Assembly: GCA_003134815.1 (NCBI GenBank)
Contig: PLCO01000007.1
Coordinates: forward strand, 1-64,000
Length of the DNA stretch: 64,000 nt
Origin: Acidobacteriaceae bacterium
GTDB taxonomy: Bacteria; Acidobacteriota; Terriglobia; Terriglobales; Acidobacteriaceae
Reading direction: 5' to 3'
Shown in pieces: positions 1 to 6,720 of this stretch; the stretch's first letter is position 1, and every line of letters starts with the position of its first letter. The position numbers were made by a program, and so were the translations under genes. Below the pieces are notes generated by a model. It was not told the origin of the DNA. It was given only the letters and a program-made list of their open reading frames with translations, and did not search any database.

Positions 1-178
1 TGGCATCCTCGCTGGCCTTGCAGATGAGCTGCCGCAGACGATGGAAATAATACGCCGCGGTCGTCTTGTTGACCCCCACCAGAACGCCCGCCGTGCGGGC
101 TGTCGTACCCGCAACAAAGTGCTCCATCAGCCGTAACTGTTGGCTCCAGAGCAGGCGGCTCTTGTGCATCTTCGCCAT
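1..178 (-). CDS. IS1595-family transposase, N-terminal part (cut by window edge)
   Basis: Fifty-nine codons can be read on the minus strand from an ATG at 178 to the window edge. The peptide starts MAKMHKSRLLWSQQ and contains VGVNKTTAAYYFHRLR, which I recognise as the N-terminal region of IS1595/IS1016-type DDE transposases, where it forms a helix-turn-helix for binding the inverted repeats. The catalytic domain lies outside the window. The gene starts about 42 bp inside the probable element end, as expected for this compact IS family. Whether the rest of the gene is intact cannot be seen. Confidence 0.85.
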   Translation of the reverse strand, partial: MAKMHKSRLLWSQQLRLMEHFVAGTTARTAGVLVGVNKTTAAYYFHRLRQLICKASEDA

Positions 179-220
179 CCTAGAAAATCTAGCTCTTCGC
201 TAGTTATCTAGGACAGCCCC
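1..220 (-). mobile_element. End of an IS1595-family insertion sequence
   Basis: Read on the minus strand, positions 220 to 201 give GGGGCTGTCCTAGATAACTA, a G-rich terminus of the kind found at IS1595/IS1016 inverted repeats, followed by the transposase start. Only the transposase-5' end of the element is in the window, so the opposite inverted repeat and the target duplication cannot be checked. The outer boundary (about 220) is an estimate. The adjoining DNA (221-2450) is full of repeats, as often seen where mobile elements accumulate. Confidence 0.7.
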
Positions 221-631
221 TTGCTTTATTAGCCGCAACTTTTTCCACAGTGCACACGAGGCCCTTCGGAGGCGAGGGGCCCCTCGTGCATTTGGGGACG
301 AAGACGCTTTGTTTCCGAGATTTTTGTGGGCGGGTTTGTGCGGGGGTTGGTTATTTCCGGGCCTGAAGGCCGAGAGGAAGTGGTGGGCCGGGGCGGGGCT
401 CGTTACTTCAGGGCCTGAAGGCCGCTGCTCCTTCCGTTCGGTGCAGGGGCTAAAGCCCTGTTTATTTTTTGCGGCGTTTGCGGCATGGCTGAAGCCAGGC
501 CCTGATACAAAACCTGTCGGTTTGCGTTCGTGCTATCCCACCCTAGCAAAGCTAGGATGGGGCACCCCAATTTTGTGGTGGATTTGAGCGCGGCTTGTGC
601 GGCATTCACAGACCTATGACACGCGCAGTTT
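221..631. repeat. Repeat-rich non-coding stretch
   Basis: No convincing gene. Visible parts are a GC-rich inverted repeat (CACGAGGCCC about 254-263 against GGGCCCCTCGTG about 279-290), two copies of GGGCCTGAAGGCC (about 359 and 412), and short palindromic phrases such as AGGGGCTAAAGCCCTG (about 447) and GCATGGCTGAAGCCAGGC (about 483). A phrase around 500-530 recurs at about 2141-2180, in both cases just before a hairpin repeat. The one open frame here runs through these repeats and has an unnatural composition, so it is not called. Confidence 0.6.
530..568. repeat. Dispersed hairpin repeat, copy 1
   Basis: The left arm GTGCTATCCCACCCTAGC is followed after a few bases by the complementary right arm GCTAGGATGGGGCACCCC. 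The inner stem CCTAGC/GCTAGG is perfect and the outer arms pair imperfectly. The same frame, with variable inner stem and loop, recurs at 938, 1067, 2044, 2177 and 2260, and inside a gene at 61620. Confidence 0.75.
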
Positions 632-877
632 CTAACTGCCAGGCGGGTTGTGAAAATTTGGAGTTTTCTTTTTTGCGAAATGCAATTCTTGTAGTCCTTC
701 GAGGTGTAATTTGGCCTTCGCCTTGAGATCCAATAGGCCGGCGGCATTAAGCTGGTACTTTTCTCCATTGGGAACGGTCGCAATATAGAGATCAGCTTGA
801 CGGCCAGACGGATCAACTGCCACGGGGATTCCCTGTGCCTTCAGTTCCGCGATCGCGGCCGCGACTTGCTTATCCAT
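632..877 (-). CDS. Small hypothetical protein (81 aa)
   Basis: An 81-residue frame starts at ATG 877 behind a good ribosome-binding site (CCGGAGAAAATT then ATG). The protein is soluble and mixed alpha/beta in appearance: an Ala/Lys-rich N-terminal helix, then a segment with VDPSGRQADLYIATVP and a Leu/Lys-rich C-terminal helix. No family is recognised. The ribosome-binding site and ordinary amino-acid composition, in a neighbourhood of repeats, argue for a real gene. It lies alone between repeat blocks. Function unknown. Confidence 0.55.
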   Translation of the reverse strand: MDKQVAAAIAELKAQGIPVAVDPSGRQADLYIATVPNGEKYQLNAAGLLDLKAKAKLHLEGLQELHFAKKKTPNFHNPPGS

Positions 878-937
878 AATTTTCTCCGGCTCTCAGACCC
901 ATTCTAACGAAGAAGGCCGGATTGTGAGTTCGGGTCA

Positions 938-1027
938 GTGCTATCCCACCCTAGGCGCAAGAACAAAAGCGCGCCTAGGATGGGGCACCCGGCGCAAGAA
1001 CAAAAGCGCGCCTAGGATGGGGCATCC
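938..1027. repeat. Dispersed hairpin repeat, copy 2, with duplicated right arm
   Basis: The left arm GTGCTATCCCACCCTAGG starts at 938. The loop plus right arm is then present twice as 37-bp direct repeats, 954-990 and 991-1027, differing at one base (CACCC against CATCC). Each unit ends in CCTAGGATGGGGCA, so the left arm can pair with either copy. This shows that one arm has recently been tandemly duplicated. Confidence 0.75.
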
Positions 1028-1707
1028 TCGGTTCGTGGTGGATGAAGGCAGGGGAAGTTTGGGTCCGTGCTATCCCTGGTCCCCAAGTGCGAGGGACCAG
1101 GGGCACCATCGACGGCAACAAGGCCATTCGCCCCGGCGAACAGAACGGAGGTGATCAGCAGCCCCCAGCCGAACTCGGCCCCGCCGAACCGCCAGCGTCG
1201 GCCTAAAGCGCTGTTCAACAAGGACTGATACAGCCCGCGGAAGAGAAGTTCTTCAGCAAGACCTGGCATCACCAGCAGGTAAGCCCACCCCTCACCAGTC
1301 AGTCTGACGCGAGAGCCAAGGCTGAAGACAACAGCAGGAACCGCTGCAGCGATGAAGAGGGCGACAATTGACGGCTTCAACCAGCCCGGCTGCAGGCGCG
1401 AGGTAACACCGATGGATGCAAAGGAGACTCCAGGAGCCAACCACGCCACTAGCAATGTCAAAGCCGTTGTCAGGATCGCGGCTTGCCAACTCCAATGCAG
1501 GTGCTGGAACCCGTTCACCCGGGGGAGTTCTGCGATCGCATTCTCAAGGATGACCAAGGATCCGACAAACAGAACCAGTCCCCACCGCCGTATGCGGGAG
1601 CGCCAAAGCGCAACCAATACAAACGGCAAAGCGCACAACAGCGTAAGTCCAGCACTAAGGCCCACGCTGACCAGGTAGGTCCGCAGCGGCATATCGCATT
1701 GTCCCAC
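1012..1707 (-). CDS. CPBP-family (CAAX protease-like) membrane protein, 3' end replaced by repeats
   Basis: A 231-residue membrane protein with at least five hydrophobic helices. The CPBP (abortive infection/CAAX protease) signature EELLFRGLYQ is present near residue 155, supplying the first two catalytic glutamates and the Arg. The next motif normally has His after LF.., but here it reads LFAGAN. Right after VAVDG (about residue 203) the frame enters hairpin repeat copy 3 and stops inside copy 2, so the last motif is missing and the tail is repeat-encoded. It is probably inactive, a gene truncated by repeats. The start is uncertain (1707, or ATG at 1692); neither has a strong ribosome-binding site. 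Confidence 0.65.
   Translation of the reverse strand: MGQCDMPLRTYLVSVGLSAGLTLLCALPFVLVALWRSRIRRWGLVLFVGSLVILENAIAELPRVNGFQHLHWSWQAAILTTALTLLVAWLAPGVSFASIGVTSRLQPGWLKPSIVALFIAAAVPAVVFSLGSRVRLTGEGWAYLLVMPGLAEELLFRGLYQSLLNSALGRRWRFGGAEFGWGLLITSVLFAGANGLVAVDGAPGPSHLGTRDSTDPNFPCLHPPRTEDAPS
1067..1107. repeat. Dispersed hairpin repeat, copy 3 (second subtype)
   Basis: This copy has left arm GTGCTATCCCTGGTCCC and right arm GGGACCAGGGGCACC, with AAGTGCGA as loop. The outer edges (GTGCTATCCC and GGGGCACC) match copy 1 but the inner stem differs, so two subtypes share one frame. It encodes part of the foreign C-terminal tail of the CPBP protein. Confidence 0.75.
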
Positions 1708-1989
1708 ATGCAGCCGAAGACACCCGTAGAAGTGATCGCACCAGGCATTTCGGTTTGAGCCACCACGCGATGACTCGTGGATTGTCGGCTACTCGGAGAT
1801 TACTCATCGGTAAACGGCGTCGAGGCGACTGGAACTCTCTGGGTCCGCCGAGCGACCTGTGGTGTGCGATCCCACCCTTCGCCAAAATTCCAAGAAGCAG
1901 GTCCCCGTTCGACTCCGATCGCTGACGCGATCTTCGCTCAGGGCAGGCTTTCGGCTCCGCTGAAATGCGCTTCGCTCGGGATGGCAGAT

Positions 1990-2024
1990 CAGTTGTCAGT
2001 TATCAGTTGTCAGTGGTCAGTTGT
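1990..2024. repeat. 7-bp-period tandem array (CAGTTGT type)
   Basis: Five consecutive heptamers: CAGTTGT, CAGTTAT, CAGTTGT, CAGTGGT, CAGTTGT. It belongs to a wider set of heptameric arrays at intergenic positions in this window (18984, 27467, 27572, 28974, 38501, 50191, 55632). Confidence 0.8.
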
Positions 2025-2043
2025 CCGTGCGTAGCGACGACCC

Positions 2044-2085
2044 GTGCGATCCCAGGTCCCCAAATGCGAGGGATCAGGGGCACCC
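2044..2085. repeat. Dispersed hairpin repeat, copy 4
   Basis: Same subtype as copy 3: GTGCGATCCCAGGTCCCC, a short loop AAATGCGA, then GGGATCAGGGGCACCC. Mismatches in the stem indicate an older copy. Confidence 0.7.
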
Positions 2086-2176
2086 GTTTCTTGTGGTGAG
2101 TGTGGATCGCGGCAGTCGGGGATGAATCCCCGACCTACCAGTCAAGCCCTGATACAAGGCCTGTGAGTTTGAGATC

Positions 2177-2223
2177 GTGCTATCCCACCCTTCGCCAGAA
2201 AAAAGCGAAGGATAGGGCAACCC
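2177..2223. repeat. Dispersed hairpin repeat, copy 5
   Basis: The left arm GTGCTATCCCACCCTTCGC pairs with GCGAAGGATAGGGCAACCC. This is the copy most like the one inside the UbiD gene at 61620, sharing the TTCGC/GCGAA-type stem and the GGGCAACC edge. Confidence 0.75.
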
Positions 2224-2259
2224 GTCTGTGGAGGGTGAAGAAAGAGAAACCCGAGGTTC

Positions 2260-2324
2260 GTGCTATCCCACCGTAGCGTAGCGCGCGATCCCTGGTCCCC
2301 AAGTGCGAGGGACCAGGGGCACCC
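2260..2324. repeat. Mosaic hairpin repeat, copy 6
   Basis: The left part GTGCTATCCCACCGTAGCG is of the copy-1 subtype, but it runs directly into a complete copy-3-type hairpin (CGATCCCTGGTCCCC, loop, GGGACCAGGGGCACCC). This looks like insertion or recombination of one subtype within another. Confidence 0.7.
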
Positions 2325-2450
2325 GGCCGATACGGTTAAGTGGCGTTCTTCTTAAGAAAACGCCACATTGCTCGATCTAAAAACGCCACCGGAATTGGAG
2401 AAACGCCGGAATTGAAGAACCGCCGGAATTGAAGAACCGCGGTAGTAGTG

Positions 2451-3722
2451 TCATTGCGCGTATTTTTGTCTCCGGTTGGCAATGCTCTCCTCCTTCGCCT
2501 GCATCGTCCTCTCCGCTTGCATGGCCCGGCGAGCACGCACGAGGCGGCCCCTGGCGGCGGCGTTATTGCCCTCGATTTGCCAGGCCCGTTTATAGTTAGC
2601 TGCCGCTGCCGCGTAATTGCCCTTGTGCATCTGTAGGTTGGCCAAATCGAAATATCTCTGCGCGGAACGTGCCATAGCTCCACGGGACTCAGGAGCCGAG
2701 GTCATTCGGCGAGCGGATGTCGACGCCGGAGCCCTCGAGAATGCCGCATCATGCGACCCTCCGCTTGACCCTGACGCAACACGCGCAGTAGCTCGGCGAG
2801 ATGGACGTTCCGGTGTCATCATCGGGTGCGTCGTAGCGATCGGCGATGCTACCTTCGCCGGTGACGGCTTGACCGCAGTATCCGGGGCATCGCCGGCCTG
2901 AGGATTGACTTCAGGCACGGTGGCGGGATCCTCGGCGACGGAAGTTGGTTCGGGCGCAGAAGGAGAATCCGGCGAGTTGAGCTGCGGTGGTGAACTGTGC
3001 GCCTGAGAGCCAGGTACGGCCCCGATGCGATGAAATACAACGATGAAACCCACGCACAGCGACAGCGCGCCGATGGCGGCGGCAACCCTGTAAATTACAA
3101 TTCTCGACGCTTGAGGTGGAGACGCTGCCGGCCTGGACGCTGCCGGATTGGACGATGCAAGTTTCGACGATGCAAGTTTCGACGATGCAAGTTTTAACCA
3201 GGAGATTATCGGCCAGGAGATTGTCGGCGCAAAAGAACGGTCCAGAGCACTCCTGGGCGCAATTTCAACGCGATCTGTTGCATTGCCTTCCTTTTCTGCT
3301 TTTTCCTTTTTGACGGCCGGCGGCACATCGGCCTTTACGGCAGGCGCAACTGCGATGGGAATTACCGGCGGCGCGACATATTGTGCGGCCATTTGCTCAG
3401 GCAGCTTCGCTTTCACCGCCGGCAAAGCGGCCGTTTTCGCGGCCAGTGCAGCGGCGATCTCGATGGCCGGAGGCACAAAGTTTTCAACCAGGCCGATCTC
3501 CAGCGATGGCTCGTATTCATGCGAAACCACCGGCGCGTGCTGGCGAAAAAGATTGTTGATGAGCGCAGTCTGGCGCGGGTTCAACAGGGAAAGCGAGAGC
3601 TGTCGAAAGTTGCGGAAGGTCCAAAGCAGATAAACGCGCTGCCAAAAGGAGGGTTCAACGGCAACTAATCCTTGCTGCGTTTGGAATAGCAAGAAGCCAG
3701 ATTCAAGCTTGTTCAGAAGCAC
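2451..3722 (-). CDS. Single-pass membrane protein with C-terminal TPR-like region
   Basis: A 423-residue protein from the GTG at 3722, chosen because GGGGGAG lies four bases upstream; a GTG at 3720+18 (3738-3740) would add six residues without a ribosome-binding site. The N-terminal ~55 residues include SFWQRVYLLWTFRNFR, which I recall from Acidobacteria proteins of unknown function. A Pro/Ala/Lys linker follows, with three 15-bp in-frame repeats encoding KLASS (about 3146-3192). Then come one TM helix (around residues 210-230), another Pro/Ser-rich linker and a C-terminal TPR-like helical pair with Lys/Arg-rich tail. It is probably anchored in the inner membrane with the TPR part on the other side. 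Partner and function unknown. Confidence 0.6.
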   Translation of the reverse strand: MLLNKLESGFLLFQTQQGLVAVEPSFWQRVYLLWTFRNFRQLSLSLLNPRQTALINNLFRQHAPVVSHEYEPSLEIGLVENFVPPAIEIAAALAAKTAALPAVKAKLPEQMAAQYVAPPVIPIAVAPAVKADVPPAVKKEKAEKEGNATDRVEIAPRSALDRSFAPTISWPIISWLKLASSKLASSKLASSNPAASRPAASPPQASRIVIYRVAAAIGALSLCVGFIVVFHRIGAVPGSQAHSSPPQLNSPDSPSAPEPTSVAEDPATVPEVNPQAGDAPDTAVKPSPAKVASPIATTHPMMTPERPSRRATARVASGSSGGSHDAAFSRAPASTSARRMTSAPESRGAMARSAQRYFDLANLQMHKGNYAAAAANYKRAWQIEGNNAAARGRLVRARRAMQAERTMQAKEESIANRRQKYAQ

Positions 3723-4214
3723 AAATCTCCCCCGTGACACAGGATACAGCTTGCGTGGTACAGGGGCCTAATCGCAACCTATCGATGACGGACCCACTGA
3801 TCACGATGAGCCGAACCGCCTTCGCAAGCGAGTTGCAAAGAGTTTTCACGGCTGTGCCCTGCCGCATCCTACCGCCAGATCGTTGAAAACGGCCAAGGGG
3901 GGATTGGCATCGCTTTCGAACGCCCAAATCGGATTCCCCGACTTAGACCCCGCATCCGGACCAAAGTTGCGCTACAGGTTTCTATGCCAGGTTTCGGTGT
4001 TGCCGGCATGCAGGCCGACGGCTGCTGGGACCAGGGCTGGGACCTTAGCTAGCCGCCGAACAGGCATTATGCCAGAGCACGATTGCGCCTGGCGGAAGCG
4101 GAAGGGTACAATCGCCACTCCAGAGGCTAAATCGGGCGCTCGAATCCCGGCCAATCTGTAAGCCCTGGCCAATCTGTATCTGCGCCAATCTTTATCTGCA
4201 TCGAGGAGAGCTTC
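3723..4214. other. Non-coding stretch, nothing clear except short repeats
   Basis: No supported gene. There are minor direct repeats: GGGACCAGGGCTGGGACC near 4028-4046, and three related copies of GCCAATCT followed by GTA/TTA between about 4150 and 4200, just before the lipoprotein gene. No clear promoter was identified. Confidence 0.4.
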
Positions 4215-4595
4215 ATGAACAGAATCATCCGCTTGCCGGGCGCGAGCCTTGTGCTCACATCCGCGTTGCTTTGCGTTTCCTGCCACTCGGGATCGTCGTC
4301 GCCATCTCCGAGCTCTTCAGCGGGAGCGATCAACATGCTGTGCTATTCAAGCCCCACGGTTCAGACGGTGCGATTGAGTGCCGTCTTTCCGATCAAGACT
4401 CACGATGCAACCACGATGGTGGAGGAGCCCTGGTCCGCCGACTTCAGGCGCTATCTGGCGCATTCGGGCAATGAGGGCGGCATCAGCGTTACGTGCGACC
4501 AAGTGACCTCGACGGACGCCGAAAAAGAGAAGGCTGACGAATTGCGCAAACAGGGGCACACAGTGGTCGAGACGGGCTGGACCTACGCCAACTAG
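4215..4595 (+). CDS. Small putative lipoprotein
   Basis: A 126-residue protein with a strong ribosome-binding site (GAGGAGAG, about 8 bases before ATG). Residues 1-22 form a signal peptide ending LLCVSC, so Cys at about 23 is a plausible though non-ideal lipidation site. A Ser/Pro-rich spacer follows. The mature domain has further Cys residues (about 43 and 98) that could pair in the periplasm. No family recognised. It stands alone, and an inverted-repeat element begins directly at its stop codon. Confidence 0.65.
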   Translation: MNRIIRLPGASLVLTSALLCVSCHSGSSSPSPSSSAGAINMLCYSSPTVQTVRLSAVFPIKTHDATTMVEEPWSADFRRYLAHSGNEGGISVTCDQVTSTDAEKEKADELRKQGHTVVETGWTYAN

Positions 4596-4706
4596 AGCGT
4601 TTTCGATTGACGTGTCGACATCGCCGGCGTCGCGCAGGACGGCAATTTTTTGAGGAAATTGCTACTGGGCCCCCCGGATTCTGTTAAGAGCAGAATCGAA
4701 AACGCT
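4596..4706. repeat. MITE-like inverted-repeat element (about 111 bp)
   Basis: A perfect 13-bp terminal inverted repeat, AGCGTTTTCGATT at 4596-4608 and AATCGAAAACGCT at 4694-4706, bounds a segment with an internal hairpin (GCAATTT, loop, AAATTGC, about 4641-4661). It begins directly after the lipoprotein stop codon. It may be a small non-autonomous mobile element or a long mRNA 3' hairpin. No flanking direct repeat was found. Confidence 0.5.
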
Positions 4707-4797
4707 GTAGACGCCGGCCGCGAGTGCGCGCTACGTCCATTGCTGGGCGTTGCAGGTCTGGTTCGATGGGGTCTTCATAGAGAGGGGTCACGGTGAT

Positions 4798-5235
4798 ATG
4801 GAAGAGCCGAGAAGATTGAGATTCCCAATTCCCGCGATGGTTGTCCCGGTGGTCGTCGGGCTTCTCTATCTATTTGTGCCGGGTGTTCGAGAGCGGCCCT
4901 GGACGGCTTGGAGGATTGGGGGAGCGGCTTTTGCAGCAGCCGGCTACATCCTGTTCGTGATCTCGCGTATTCAATTGGGCAATTCATTTTCGGTCTCGGC
5001 ACAAGCAAAAGGGCTCGTCACGCATGGACTCTACGCGCGAATCCGCAATCCAATTTACGTCTTCGTTGTGGTGATGTGGGTCGGCCTGGTTGTCGCGCTG
5101 CACCTTTATTGGTTGTTCATTCCTTTGCTCGCTTTGCTCGTGATGCAAGTGATCCGGGCGAGTCGGGAAGCAAAGGTCCTGCAAGCAAAGTTCGGACAGG
5201 CTTATATCGATTACCGAAAGCAAACCTGGTTTTGA
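4798..5235 (+). CDS. Isoprenylcysteine carboxyl methyltransferase-like membrane protein
   Basis: A 145-residue protein with four predicted TM helices. The C-terminal half carries the ICMT/PEMT-type pattern: GLVTHGLYARIRNPIYV, where the G-x-Y-x-x-x-R-N-P motif binds S-adenosylmethionine, and a later acidic stretch SREAKVLQAKFG..Y..Y. Proteins of this family methylate membrane-embedded thiols or lipids; the bacterial substrate is not known. The start at ATG 4798 was chosen because GAGGGG lies about 10 bases upstream; an in-frame extension to 4750 lacks membrane character. Apparently monocistronic. Confidence 0.8.
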   Translation: MEEPRRLRFPIPAMVVPVVVGLLYLFVPGVRERPWTAWRIGGAAFAAAGYILFVISRIQLGNSFSVSAQAKGLVTHGLYARIRNPIYVFVVVMWVGLVVALHLYWLFIPLLALLVMQVIRASREAKVLQAKFGQAYIDYRKQTWF

Positions 5236-5734
5236 TATGGAATAGGCTCCTGCAATCAACCTGCTGCCGGGACCGCAACGGTACCCGCTGGATCGACATG
5301 CTTGCGGGGAATCTTTGGCAAGGCATTGGGAAAAAGCGGATCGACGGCCGAGCGTGCAGGTGGGTCTTGTAGCGCCGCAGAGACTCGAGTTGCCGCTTGG
5401 CGCGGCGGCGTTCTTTGAAGTTTCATCGGCCCAGCGAGGATGGCTTGCTGGGCCGTGCTTTGTTTTCGGGATTTGTGCGGGCGGGTGTGCGGGGGTTGAT
5501 GAGGGGCGAAGCGGGGTTAGCGGAGCTAGCGGAGTAGGCGGGGCTAGTTGGCCGGGTTGGGAGCGGAGGGTCGATCTGGATCGCGGGGGCTGGATCGCGG
5601 GGGCTGGATGGCGCGACGTGTGATCGGCGGCGGAAACGGCGTTTATCATTGCCGATCGGTGGACCTCGCGAGGACAGTACCATTTATGTGAGAGCTTTGC
5701 GGAGGACGGGGCTTCGGGCTGTCTCGCACAGCGT
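5236..5734. other. Non-coding stretch with a 9-bp tandem array
   Basis: Open frames here have G/P/R-rich, repeat-driven composition and are not called. The notable content is the 9-bp array at 5511-5546 and a GATCGCGGGGGCTG duplication at about 5578-5605. The 3' end of the next minus-strand operon lies at the right edge. Confidence 0.5.
5511..5546. repeat. 9-bp-period tandem array (GCGGAGCTA type)
   Basis: Four consecutive nonamers: GCGGGGTTA, GCGGAGCTA, GCGGAGTAG, GCGGGGCTA. The same nonamer family forms a second four-unit array at 32212-32247, between leuD and ilvD. Confidence 0.75.
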
Positions 5735-5965
5735 TTACCGGGCTGCGACGCCTTTCCTTTCCCGCCTCTCAAGCAGGTCCAACATGAGCTGCAAAGCCTG
5801 GCTTTCCTTCAGCATGTCGTCCCAACGATAGGCGGGCCCTGGCTTGTGACTAATCGTCAGGCATTCGGCCTCGAACTCAGCCACAAGGGATTCGCAATGG
5901 AATTTGCGCAGTACCGTTTGCGCTATCAGAGTTTGGATTCTGGGTTTGCTTATGATGAGTTCCAT
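5735..5965 (-). CDS. Hypothetical protein (76 aa), last gene of an uncharacterised operon
   Basis: A 76-residue, largely helical, charged protein starting MELIISKPRIQTLI. GAGGTC lies about 7 bases before the ATG at 5965. A central Cys/His-containing stretch and a Leu/Arg-rich C-terminal helix are visible. It lies 29 bp downstream of the gene ending at 5995 and in the same direction, so cotranscription is likely. No family recognised. Confidence 0.55.
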   Translation of the reverse strand: MELIISKPRIQTLIAQTVLRKFHCESLVAEFEAECLTISHKPGPAYRWDDMLKESQALQLMLDLLERRERKGVAAR

Positions 5966-5994
5966 GGTTTGACCTCGGCTGGTGCGCTCTGGCG

Positions 5995-6720
5995 TCAGGC
6001 GGGGAGCGCTGCTCCCGGGTGCTTGCGGGACAAGCTCGGCAATTCATTCAGGAAAATTGAGTTCACGGCGGAGCGAGCAGGAACCTTGCGCAGAGCGGCA
6101 GACTGCGGAGCGGCTGCGCGGCCGGGCAGCGAACGCAGGCCGATGAAGACTTCGCCCACAGTGAGGCGAGCGTTGCCTTCAAAGTCAAGGAAGCCGGCAT
6201 TGCGCTGCTTACAGAGGTCCTGTGCCTCCGGGGAGAGATAGGGCGCGATGAGAACGGGCGTCGCATCGGAGGCGAGCGGGGCGGCGGCTGCACGGTTTTC
6301 GTGAAACGCTTTGCGAAGGCGATCCGGGTCACCGTCGGGATAGACTTCGCAGGCCAGCGTGTGGCTATGACCGTAGACCTCGATTTGGGCAATGATTGTT
6401 CGCGTCGGGATTCGGTGCGACGGGATTGGTTGAGCGGGGATTGGTCGGGCGAGGATTGGGCGCGCAGGGATTTGTCGCGCGGGGATTCGCGGGGCCGAGA
6501 TGCCGGAATAAGGGTCGCGGGGCCAGGGTTCGCGTTTCATCTCCATCAGTTTAATCGCGGAGACACGGCCGAGCAGCGCCGCCAGGGCCTCGGCTGCACG
6601 GGTCTCAAGATCAGATGGGCGCGTGTCAGGTTCAGTCGAGCGCTTTGGGGATTCAGTCCGGCGCGGCGAGGGTTCGGTCGAGCGCGTTGCGGGTTCAGTC
6701 GAAACTGTGTCCATTTTCAT
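5995..6720 (-). CDS. Conserved hypothetical protein with repeat-expanded N-terminal half
   Basis: A 241-residue protein. Residues about 1-105 are low complexity: STEP-type repeats at the start, then several five-residue units such as IPARP and ILARP coded by degenerate 15-bp repeats (about 6405-6500). The folded core, about 105-205, contains IEVYGHSHTLACEVYPDG, LIAPYLSPEAQDLC and FLDFEGNARL. I recall this core from Acidobacteria proteins, and it loosely resembles AbiEi-type or restriction-related proteins, but I cannot assign it. The start overlaps the upstream gene by 26 bp, indicating translational coupling. The region after residue 205 may be degenerate. Confidence 0.55.
   Translation of the reverse strand: MKMDTVSTEPATRSTEPSPRRTESPKRSTEPDTRPSDLETRAAEALAALLGRVSAIKLMEMKREPWPRDPYSGISAPRIPARQIPARPILARPIPAQPIPSHRIPTRTIIAQIEVYGHSHTLACEVYPDGDPDRLRKAFHENRAAAAPLASDATPVLIAPYLSPEAQDLCKQRNAGFLDFEGNARLTVGEVFIGLRSLPGRAAAPQSAALRKVPARSAVNSIFLNELPSLSRKHPGAALPA

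Follow-up and report, generated by a model that had tools for sequence, protein, structure and literature searches.

Clustered hairpins in an Acidobacteriaceae genome are probably REP-like elements of a RAYT system with an atypical foot

Six hairpins of one family at the start of the contig

The stretch of DNA analysed here, hereafter the window, comprises bases 1–64,000 of contig C17 (PLCO01000007.1) from a draft Acidobacteriaceae genome of 4.18 Mb in 66 contigs, which is 96% complete. A reading made from the sequence alone had proposed a cluster of six hairpin repeats of one family at 530–2324, and a covariance model, R1, located all six copies within the first 2.4 kb. From the position of related hairpins beside genes for REP-associated tyrosine transposases (RAYTs), and from the matching of their arms, we consider it very likely that these hairpins are REP-like elements (REP, repetitive extragenic palindrome) of a RAYT system. 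The copies and their derivatives are as follows.

530–567, plus strand: copy 1, arms ACCCTAGC/GCTAGGAT.
938–990, plus strand: copy 2, arm ACCCTAGGCGC, with a long A-rich loop; single-stranded DNA fold z −5.6.
991–1027, plus strand: tandem duplication of the 3' part of copy 2, 37 nt, 97% identical, without the 5' edge.
1067–1108, plus strand: copy 3, arms TGGTCCC/GGGACCA; its 3' edge GGGGCAC at 1100–1106 abuts a truncated CPBP (CAAX) protease gene.
1864–1890, plus strand: 5' half of a broken copy, beginning GTGCGATCCCACCCTTCGCC.
2044–2085, plus strand: copy 4, arm AGGTCCC; stem partly decayed, z −0.77.
2177–2223, plus strand: copy 5, arm ACCCTTCGC; 3' edge decayed.
2260–2324, plus strand: composite copy 6, a CCC-type 5' edge followed by a complete GGTCCC-type hairpin at 2283–2324.

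Each unit is laid out as GTGC, a 3-nt bulge, CCC, an arm, a loop, the opposite arm, GGG and GCAC(CC). The common outer edges that the sequence-only reading had described are kept overall, as GTGC[TG]ATCCC and GGGGCACCC, with changes in the copies at 1067 (GGGGCACCA), 2044 (GTGCGATCCC) and 2177 (AGGGCAACCC). Folded as single-stranded DNA and compared with shuffled sequences, five of the six copies gave z scores between −2.4 and −5.6, copy 4 being the weak one. In these folds, the GTGC and GCAC edges are joined over the bulge, except in the copy at 2177, where the outer stem is lost. Where two subtypes had been distinguished, there are more than two arm types, which we read as arms seen beside different RAYT lineages. 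Copy 6 had been called a mosaic of both subtypes; its two-part build is as described, but recombination between two copies, or insertion of one into the other, is the better reading.

The source of R1 was 18 dispersed copies, four of them from the window, together with the copy at the RAYT locus L020, and these match by construction. Because four of the six window copies stood in that alignment, their R1 matches are not independent. R1 models only the eight outer pairs because in alignment A2 the inner arms of the two types are out of register, and covariation was therefore counted on end-anchored arms. Another alignment, A1, was dropped because it mixed strands.

Pairing of the arms

For the covariation count, 96 copies from three genomes were picked by their edges alone, and they contain 65 distinct insides. 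Over the first seven inner positions of these 65, the paired fraction of the arms was 0.881, against 0.536 when the arms were shuffled (maximum 0.618 of 1000 shuffles), and every one of the seven positions showed at least three standard pair types. The copies hold 29 arm combinations, and the shuffles ignore ancestry. Selection for structure, as the sequence-only reading had suggested, is thus supported by the pattern of pairing, and folded single-stranded DNA appears a likelier substrate than RNA, given the link to RAYTs described below. A C.A mismatch takes the place of the second inner pair in 25 of the 65 distinct copies (types ACCC...GGAT and GCCC...GAAC). For E. coli REPs, the available part of one study indicates that the unpaired state of the stem bulge seems crucial to recognition (PMC8266576).

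Size and distribution of the family

If the copies had been confined to these 2 kb, or had lost their pairing elsewhere, the cluster would have been only a local duplication. Instead, the family is found genome-wide and in other genomes, with pairing kept in the copies elsewhere, which rules that explanation out. An exact-ended pattern occurred 19 times in the window's own genome and never as a reversed-pattern control, and a search for the GGTCCC arm that did not require the 5' foot gave 28 occurrences against 0 in the control. R1, whose scoring covered 150 of 1844 first-look candidates, had at least 63 matches there at E≤0.05. Exact-ended copies were present in 19 of 36 genomes of the genus (the window's own included) and in none of 24 genomes from other families. 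At E≤0.001, R1 matched 18 of 120 genomes of the order, and all 18 belong to Acidobacteriaceae among the matches listed.

The copies in the window's genome are mainly extragenic: 5 of 42 lie inside predicted open reading frames (coding density of the window 0.72), and 18 of the 42 have no predicted gene on one side. This genome stands at the low end of REP copy number, since REPs usually exceed 100 copies according to the available part of PMC2817692. The richest genomes in exact copies were G008 (51) and G005 (26), and many of the G008 copies lie in direct arrays about 80 bp apart. As a separate observation, the G008 loci L173, L174 and L177 are direct tandem arrays of roughly 80-bp units, and L173 alternates ATGTCTC and GCCCTAG arms over six listed copies. 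We found no description of this hairpin family in a literature search that left most subscription journals, figures and supplements outside its reach.

Hairpins flank RAYT genes in outward orientation

The window's genome carries two RAYTs (TnpA_REP, HUH-Y1), with scores of 106.8 and 110.1 bits against NF047646 (cut-off 80); their loci are L020 and L021. L020 matches the TnpArep chain 4er8 in the PDB (E 1.5e-7), and the motifs EHVH, WQ and YIHRNP can be read from its sequence. A Pfam scan limited to these two RAYTs found Y1_Tnp only, the C-terminal helix-turn-helix (HTH) domain being absent. A hairpin of the family overlaps the 3' end of the L020 reading frame, and the arm typical of the L020 clade occurs once in this genome as an exact pattern.

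Around the best 80 of the 117 RAYT loci found, hairpins were counted under a strict rule, which replaced a looser one that had given 80 matches against 34 in reversed controls. Within 250 bp upstream of the RAYT gene there were 17 hairpins in 18.7 kb, all 17 on the minus strand; within 250 bp downstream there were 14 in 19.5 kb, 12 of them on the plus strand. Density fell with distance, from 31 hairpins in 38 kb within 250 bp to 14 in 103 kb at 250–1000 bp and 10 in 242 kb at 1–3 kb. The reversed-sequence control gave 2 hairpins overall against 56, and 23 of the 80 loci had a hairpin within 250 bp.

A second census did without the foot and looked for outward CCC-arm-loop-arm-GGG[GC]C[AG] hairpins beside RAYT genes. 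It started from 153 loci, of which 148 had a RAYT match, and kept 111 after removal of duplicates, the loci of the window's genome included. Outward hairpins stood at 97 of the 111 loci, on both flanks in 72 and on one flank in 25. Because this foot-free finder is lenient, an edge-blind search was added that took the best hairpin of each flank. This hairpin was outward and bore the GGG[GC]CA edge at 63 of the 111 upstream flanks and at 63 of the 111 downstream ones, compared with 3 and 6 inward; the remaining flanks had other hairpins (19 and 18) or none (26 and 24). In control stretches 1 kb away, the GGG[GC]CA edge on either strand was seen in 4 of 92. A RAYT system of this kind is probably widespread in the window's family, Acidobacteriaceae by record titles.

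Two further observations concern these loci. Those of the CTCATC clade (e.g. L127, L128 and L257, but not L123) often have CCCG...CGGG upstream and CCCA...TGGG downstream by eye, a difference between left and right that is reminiscent, by analogy, of the two ends of an IS200/IS605 element. The 3.4-Mb genome G016 has 13 RAYT matches, fragments among them.

Arm type follows RAYT lineage

The upstream and downstream hairpins of one RAYT carried the same six-base arm label in 52 of 70 loci, where shuffling gave a mean of 6.9 and a maximum of 15 of 2000 shuffles. On a tree of 95 RAYTs, the 13 arm groups that comprise two or more RAYTs each (83 rows) need 20 changes, compared with 58.2 when shuffled, and none of 200 shuffles was as low. 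Single forks of this tree are often weakly supported, with 32 of 92 open; all GGTCCC rows fall within one larger fork of GGT arms (support 90). Arms are also found both at a RAYT and in dispersed copies: in G005, the AGGTCTC arm that flanks RAYT L251 recurs in 9 of the 26 exact dispersed copies.

The window copies were compared by eye with hairpins at RAYT loci of relatives. From CCC to GGG, copy 1 differs once from a hairpin of L262 and from one of L146 (the first inner pair is A-T for G-C). Copy 2 is similar to the hairpins flanking RAYT L150, the arms and loop of copy 5 are identical to those of a hairpin upstream of RAYT L062, and copies 3, 4 and 6 carry the GGTCCC arm seen at RAYT loci L147, L084, L109 and L113. 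The RAYTs with such arms sit in different forks of the tree. Judged from these sequence matches, the window hairpins carry arms of at least three RAYT lineages, as found in relatives.

Probable traces of past movement

The dispersed single copies have unrelated flanks, and transposition at some time is therefore needed to account for them. At L019, both anchors were present in 9 of 19 relatives, the 10 others being without one anchor. Between the same two anchors, the hairpin was scored by the finder only in the window's genome; by eye, G006, G011, G013, G015 and G022 have a decayed or different hairpin there, and G002, G005, G014 and G019 are without the family hairpin, a terminator-like hairpin being separately present. 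The L012 site says little because both anchors occur in just 1 of 14 relatives, G006, which shows a decayed AGGTCTC-like stretch by eye.

The third site is copy 3 in the window itself. The CPBP (CAAX) protease gene at 1012–1707 on the minus strand is truncated at this copy, and an intact 257-aa gene is found in G179 (L293); at E≤1e-8 these are the only two genomes with the gene among 80 of the genus. The region homologous to the intact gene starts immediately past GGGGCAC, at base 1107, and runs for 681 bp at 93% DNA identity, so that the junction reads GGGGCAC|CATCGAC. The end of copy 3 can thus be placed to the base within a gene of which a near relative keeps an intact version.

Taken together, the outward hairpins at RAYT genes, the occupancy of the L019 site and the copy-3 junction speak for past mobility, and the family is probably mobile, transposition being inferred from the sequence comparisons. 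The ongoing mobility suggested by the sequence-only reading is unsupported, because the search of this genome yielded no RAYT with such arms and no movement was seen.

Points against a RAYT origin, and passive spread

Several observations count against assigning the hairpins to a RAYT system. The canonical GT[AG]G foot is rare: among the 28 GGTCCC-arm copies of the window's genome, 17 have GTGC and 1 has GTGG, and GT[AG][CG] stands at only 38 of 187 hairpins near RAYTs. At 14 of the 111 RAYT loci there is no outward hairpin, and the lenient finder was positive in 21 of 111 reversed controls and gave wrongly oriented hairpins at 14 flanks upstream and 30 downstream. L020 is flanked on its 3' side only, by an arm unlike that of its clade. 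On the RAYT tree, neither the GGTCCC group, which is the window's type, nor the CCCTTG group clusters by itself, and CCCTAG clusters weakly (31 of 500 shuffles as low). The arms of the dispersed copies in G008 were not found beside any of the three RAYT matches in that genome. Transposition was not observed. The other half of the CPBP gene was not found in window positions 1–6000, so the copy-3 junction is best described as an insertion followed by a deletion, or as a recombination, rather than as a clean empty site.

Lastly, a search of the window's own 96%-complete draft gave two RAYT matches in all and none with the window's arms, and the resident RAYTs are for this reason not shown to act on the window hairpins. 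With no RAYT of the cognate lineages found in their own genome, most window copies look orphaned, and their arm types are likely inert there today. Cognate RAYTs may also have been missed at contig ends or in sequence that the draft does not contain.

A rival view is that spread is now passive, with old RAYT debris being changed only by homologous recombination, slippage and gene conversion; its account of the origin is compatible with a RAYT system. The direct tandem arrays of G008, the 37-nt duplication and composite copy 6 in the window, the lack of a cognate RAYT and the incomplete copy-3 junction all fit such a history. It does not by itself account for the dispersed single copies with unrelated flanks, which require transposition at some time, and we regard it as a possible but less probable description of the family.

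RNA elements and classical transposon ends

A cis-acting RNA element (a riboswitch, terminator or mRNA stabiliser) that regulates neighbouring genes would also have stable GC-rich stems with covariation. In its favour, the nearest gene end is a 3' end for 14 of 19 placeable copies in the window's genome, and 39 of 54 codirectional copies in the G008 arrays lie on the gene strand. However, the strand is inconsistent across genomes (same/opposite strand among codirectional copies 8/3 in the window's genome, 39/15 in G008 and 3/6 in G005, by crude gene calls), and Rfam gave no match at E≤1 in window positions 1–4000. The terminator-like hairpin at the L019 site is separate, with four relatives lacking the family hairpin (by eye), and an RNA element does not predict outward pairs at RAYT genes. 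We therefore hold it to be very improbable. Least probable of all is that the copies are miniature inverted-repeat transposable elements of a classical DDE transposon, such as the nearby IS1595, with GTGC/GCAC as short terminal inverted repeats: an IS1595-like fragment does lie at 1–178 and the edges are complementary, but what they bracket is a single hairpin fold whose arms vary, not a pair of transposon ends, and the hairpins flanking RAYTs have fixed strand and matching arms.

Relation to known RAYT systems

The assignment to a RAYT system thus remains the preferred one, and the foot determines its place within such systems. The spacer between foot and stem is 3 nt, where a canonical REP has GT[AG]G within 2 nt of the stem; GTAG is seen in two hairpins of L042. 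Loss of the foot beside RAYTs with retention in dispersed copies was considered and rejected, as its foot-blind frequency was 38 of 187 near RAYTs and 12 of 66 at a distance (Fisher p 0.86). The hairpins are placed as REPs are and probably act in the same way. Because the canonical foot is mostly absent, the family is classed as a variant of the REP/RAYT kind with an atypical foot, unlike canonical REPs.

The comparisons that follow are with the available parts of the cited papers. Like the REPs and REPtrons of TnpA_REP/RAYT systems (Corneloup 2018, PMC6006769; PMC8266576), these are short imperfect palindromes with irregular stems, in many copies and mainly intergenic, which form inverted pairs at RAYT genes with a palindrome type of its own for each RAYT. 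They differ in the foot, mostly GTGC or another sequence here and GT[AG]G there, and in the foot-stem spacer, 3 nt compared with 0–2 nt in the published search rule (PMC6006769, PMC8266576). They also differ in that a CCC/GGG base and a GGG[GC]CA edge are common to many RAYT lineages while the arms vary freely. The 'double foot' REPs of TnpA_Y1 subclass 2.4 likewise have a 5' foot and its 3' complement, here GTGC...GCAC, but theirs is GT[AG]G...C[TC]AC (PMC6006769). The motifs of L020 fit none of the available class 2 and class 3 rows of the table in that paper.

TIRtrons of Acidobacteria are also close, having RAYT-like genes (TIRYTs) with flanking inverted repeats, some of which extend over the 3' end of the gene (Di Nocera 2013, PMC3733652); one such repeat family recurs in Koribacter (PMC3733652). 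Their common motif is GGGGWSAS, whereas ours is GGGGCACC (PMC3733652). Of 26 TIRYTs, 20 have been placed in subclass 2.1, with C-terminal HTH domains (PMC6006769), and L020 and L021 differ from these in lacking that Pfam domain. Some TIRtrons may be the same elements as our hairpins, as compared by description. Class 3 TnpA_Y1 genes, also found in Acidobacteria, have high-copy hairpins as well, with the foot CnGA and about 600 copies in Solibacter (PMC6006769); L020, however, has YIHRNP rather than the Y----Q signature, and the foot differs (PMC6006769).

A possible recognition code

On this basis, the unit would be a non-autonomous REP-like palindrome that folds into a hairpin in single-stranded DNA, such as the template of the lagging strand. 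It would consist of a 5' foot (mostly GTGC here), a 3-nt bulge (often TAT), a CCC/GGG stem base, an arm, a loop and the 3' edge GGGGCAC, the arm being lineage-specific and often containing a C.A mismatch. By analogy with the published biochemistry of TnpA_REP, the cognate RAYT would bind the structure and the arm and cut beside the hairpin, which would let the unit spread, mainly between genes. Within the window, hairpins whose arms belong to three or more RAYT lineages would have accumulated, duplicated and recombined.

A more tentative extension, which we think doubtful as a whole, treats the stem arm as a recognition code that is inherited and co-evolves with the RAYT, the edges remaining unchanged. 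Since the edges are common to the lineages, a surviving RAYT might then still mobilise orphans of other lineages by edge and fold. If so, such cross-lineage mobilisation would explain the composite and array copies, and mixed arms in one genome would preserve a history of RAYT lineages acquired and lost, here within one bacterial family. Little is established about the way in which a RAYT distinguishes its own REP from foreign ones; the available part of one study of REP recognition covered three RAYTs (PMC8266576). With arms that vary across 13 RAYT groups and edges that are kept, beside 97 RAYT loci, a specificity code can be tested here both by sequence and at the bench.

Neighbouring features

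An N-terminal fragment of an IS1595-like transposase (59 aa) lies at window positions 1–178 on the minus strand, where it is cut by the contig end. It is 66.7% identical to an annotated IS1595 transposase, which bears out the IS1595 neighbour named in the sequence-only reading, although Pfam gave no match to this fragment at E≤0.01.

A second palindrome family, GGCTGAAGCC..GCCCTGATACA, is present at 354–525 and 2140–2165, with GGCCTGAAGGCC and GGGGCTAAAGCCC forms also seen by eye. It has 10 matches in the genome with at most 2 mismatches, and 5 of these (on contigs C16, C17, C27, C34 and C60) end 19–20 bp 5' of an R1 hairpin. This constant distance suggests that the two form a composite unit. 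The RAYT L021 is flanked by the palindromes GGCTTAAGCC and GGCTGAAGCC, at L021:40–65 and L021:565–590 (by eye), which suggests that this second family belongs to L021. Short tandem repeats accompany the cluster: three 14-bp units resembling ATCAGTTGTCAGTT at 1988–2029 and, just past the hairpins, three units resembling CCGGAATTGAAGAACCGC and spaced 17 bp at 2386–2440.

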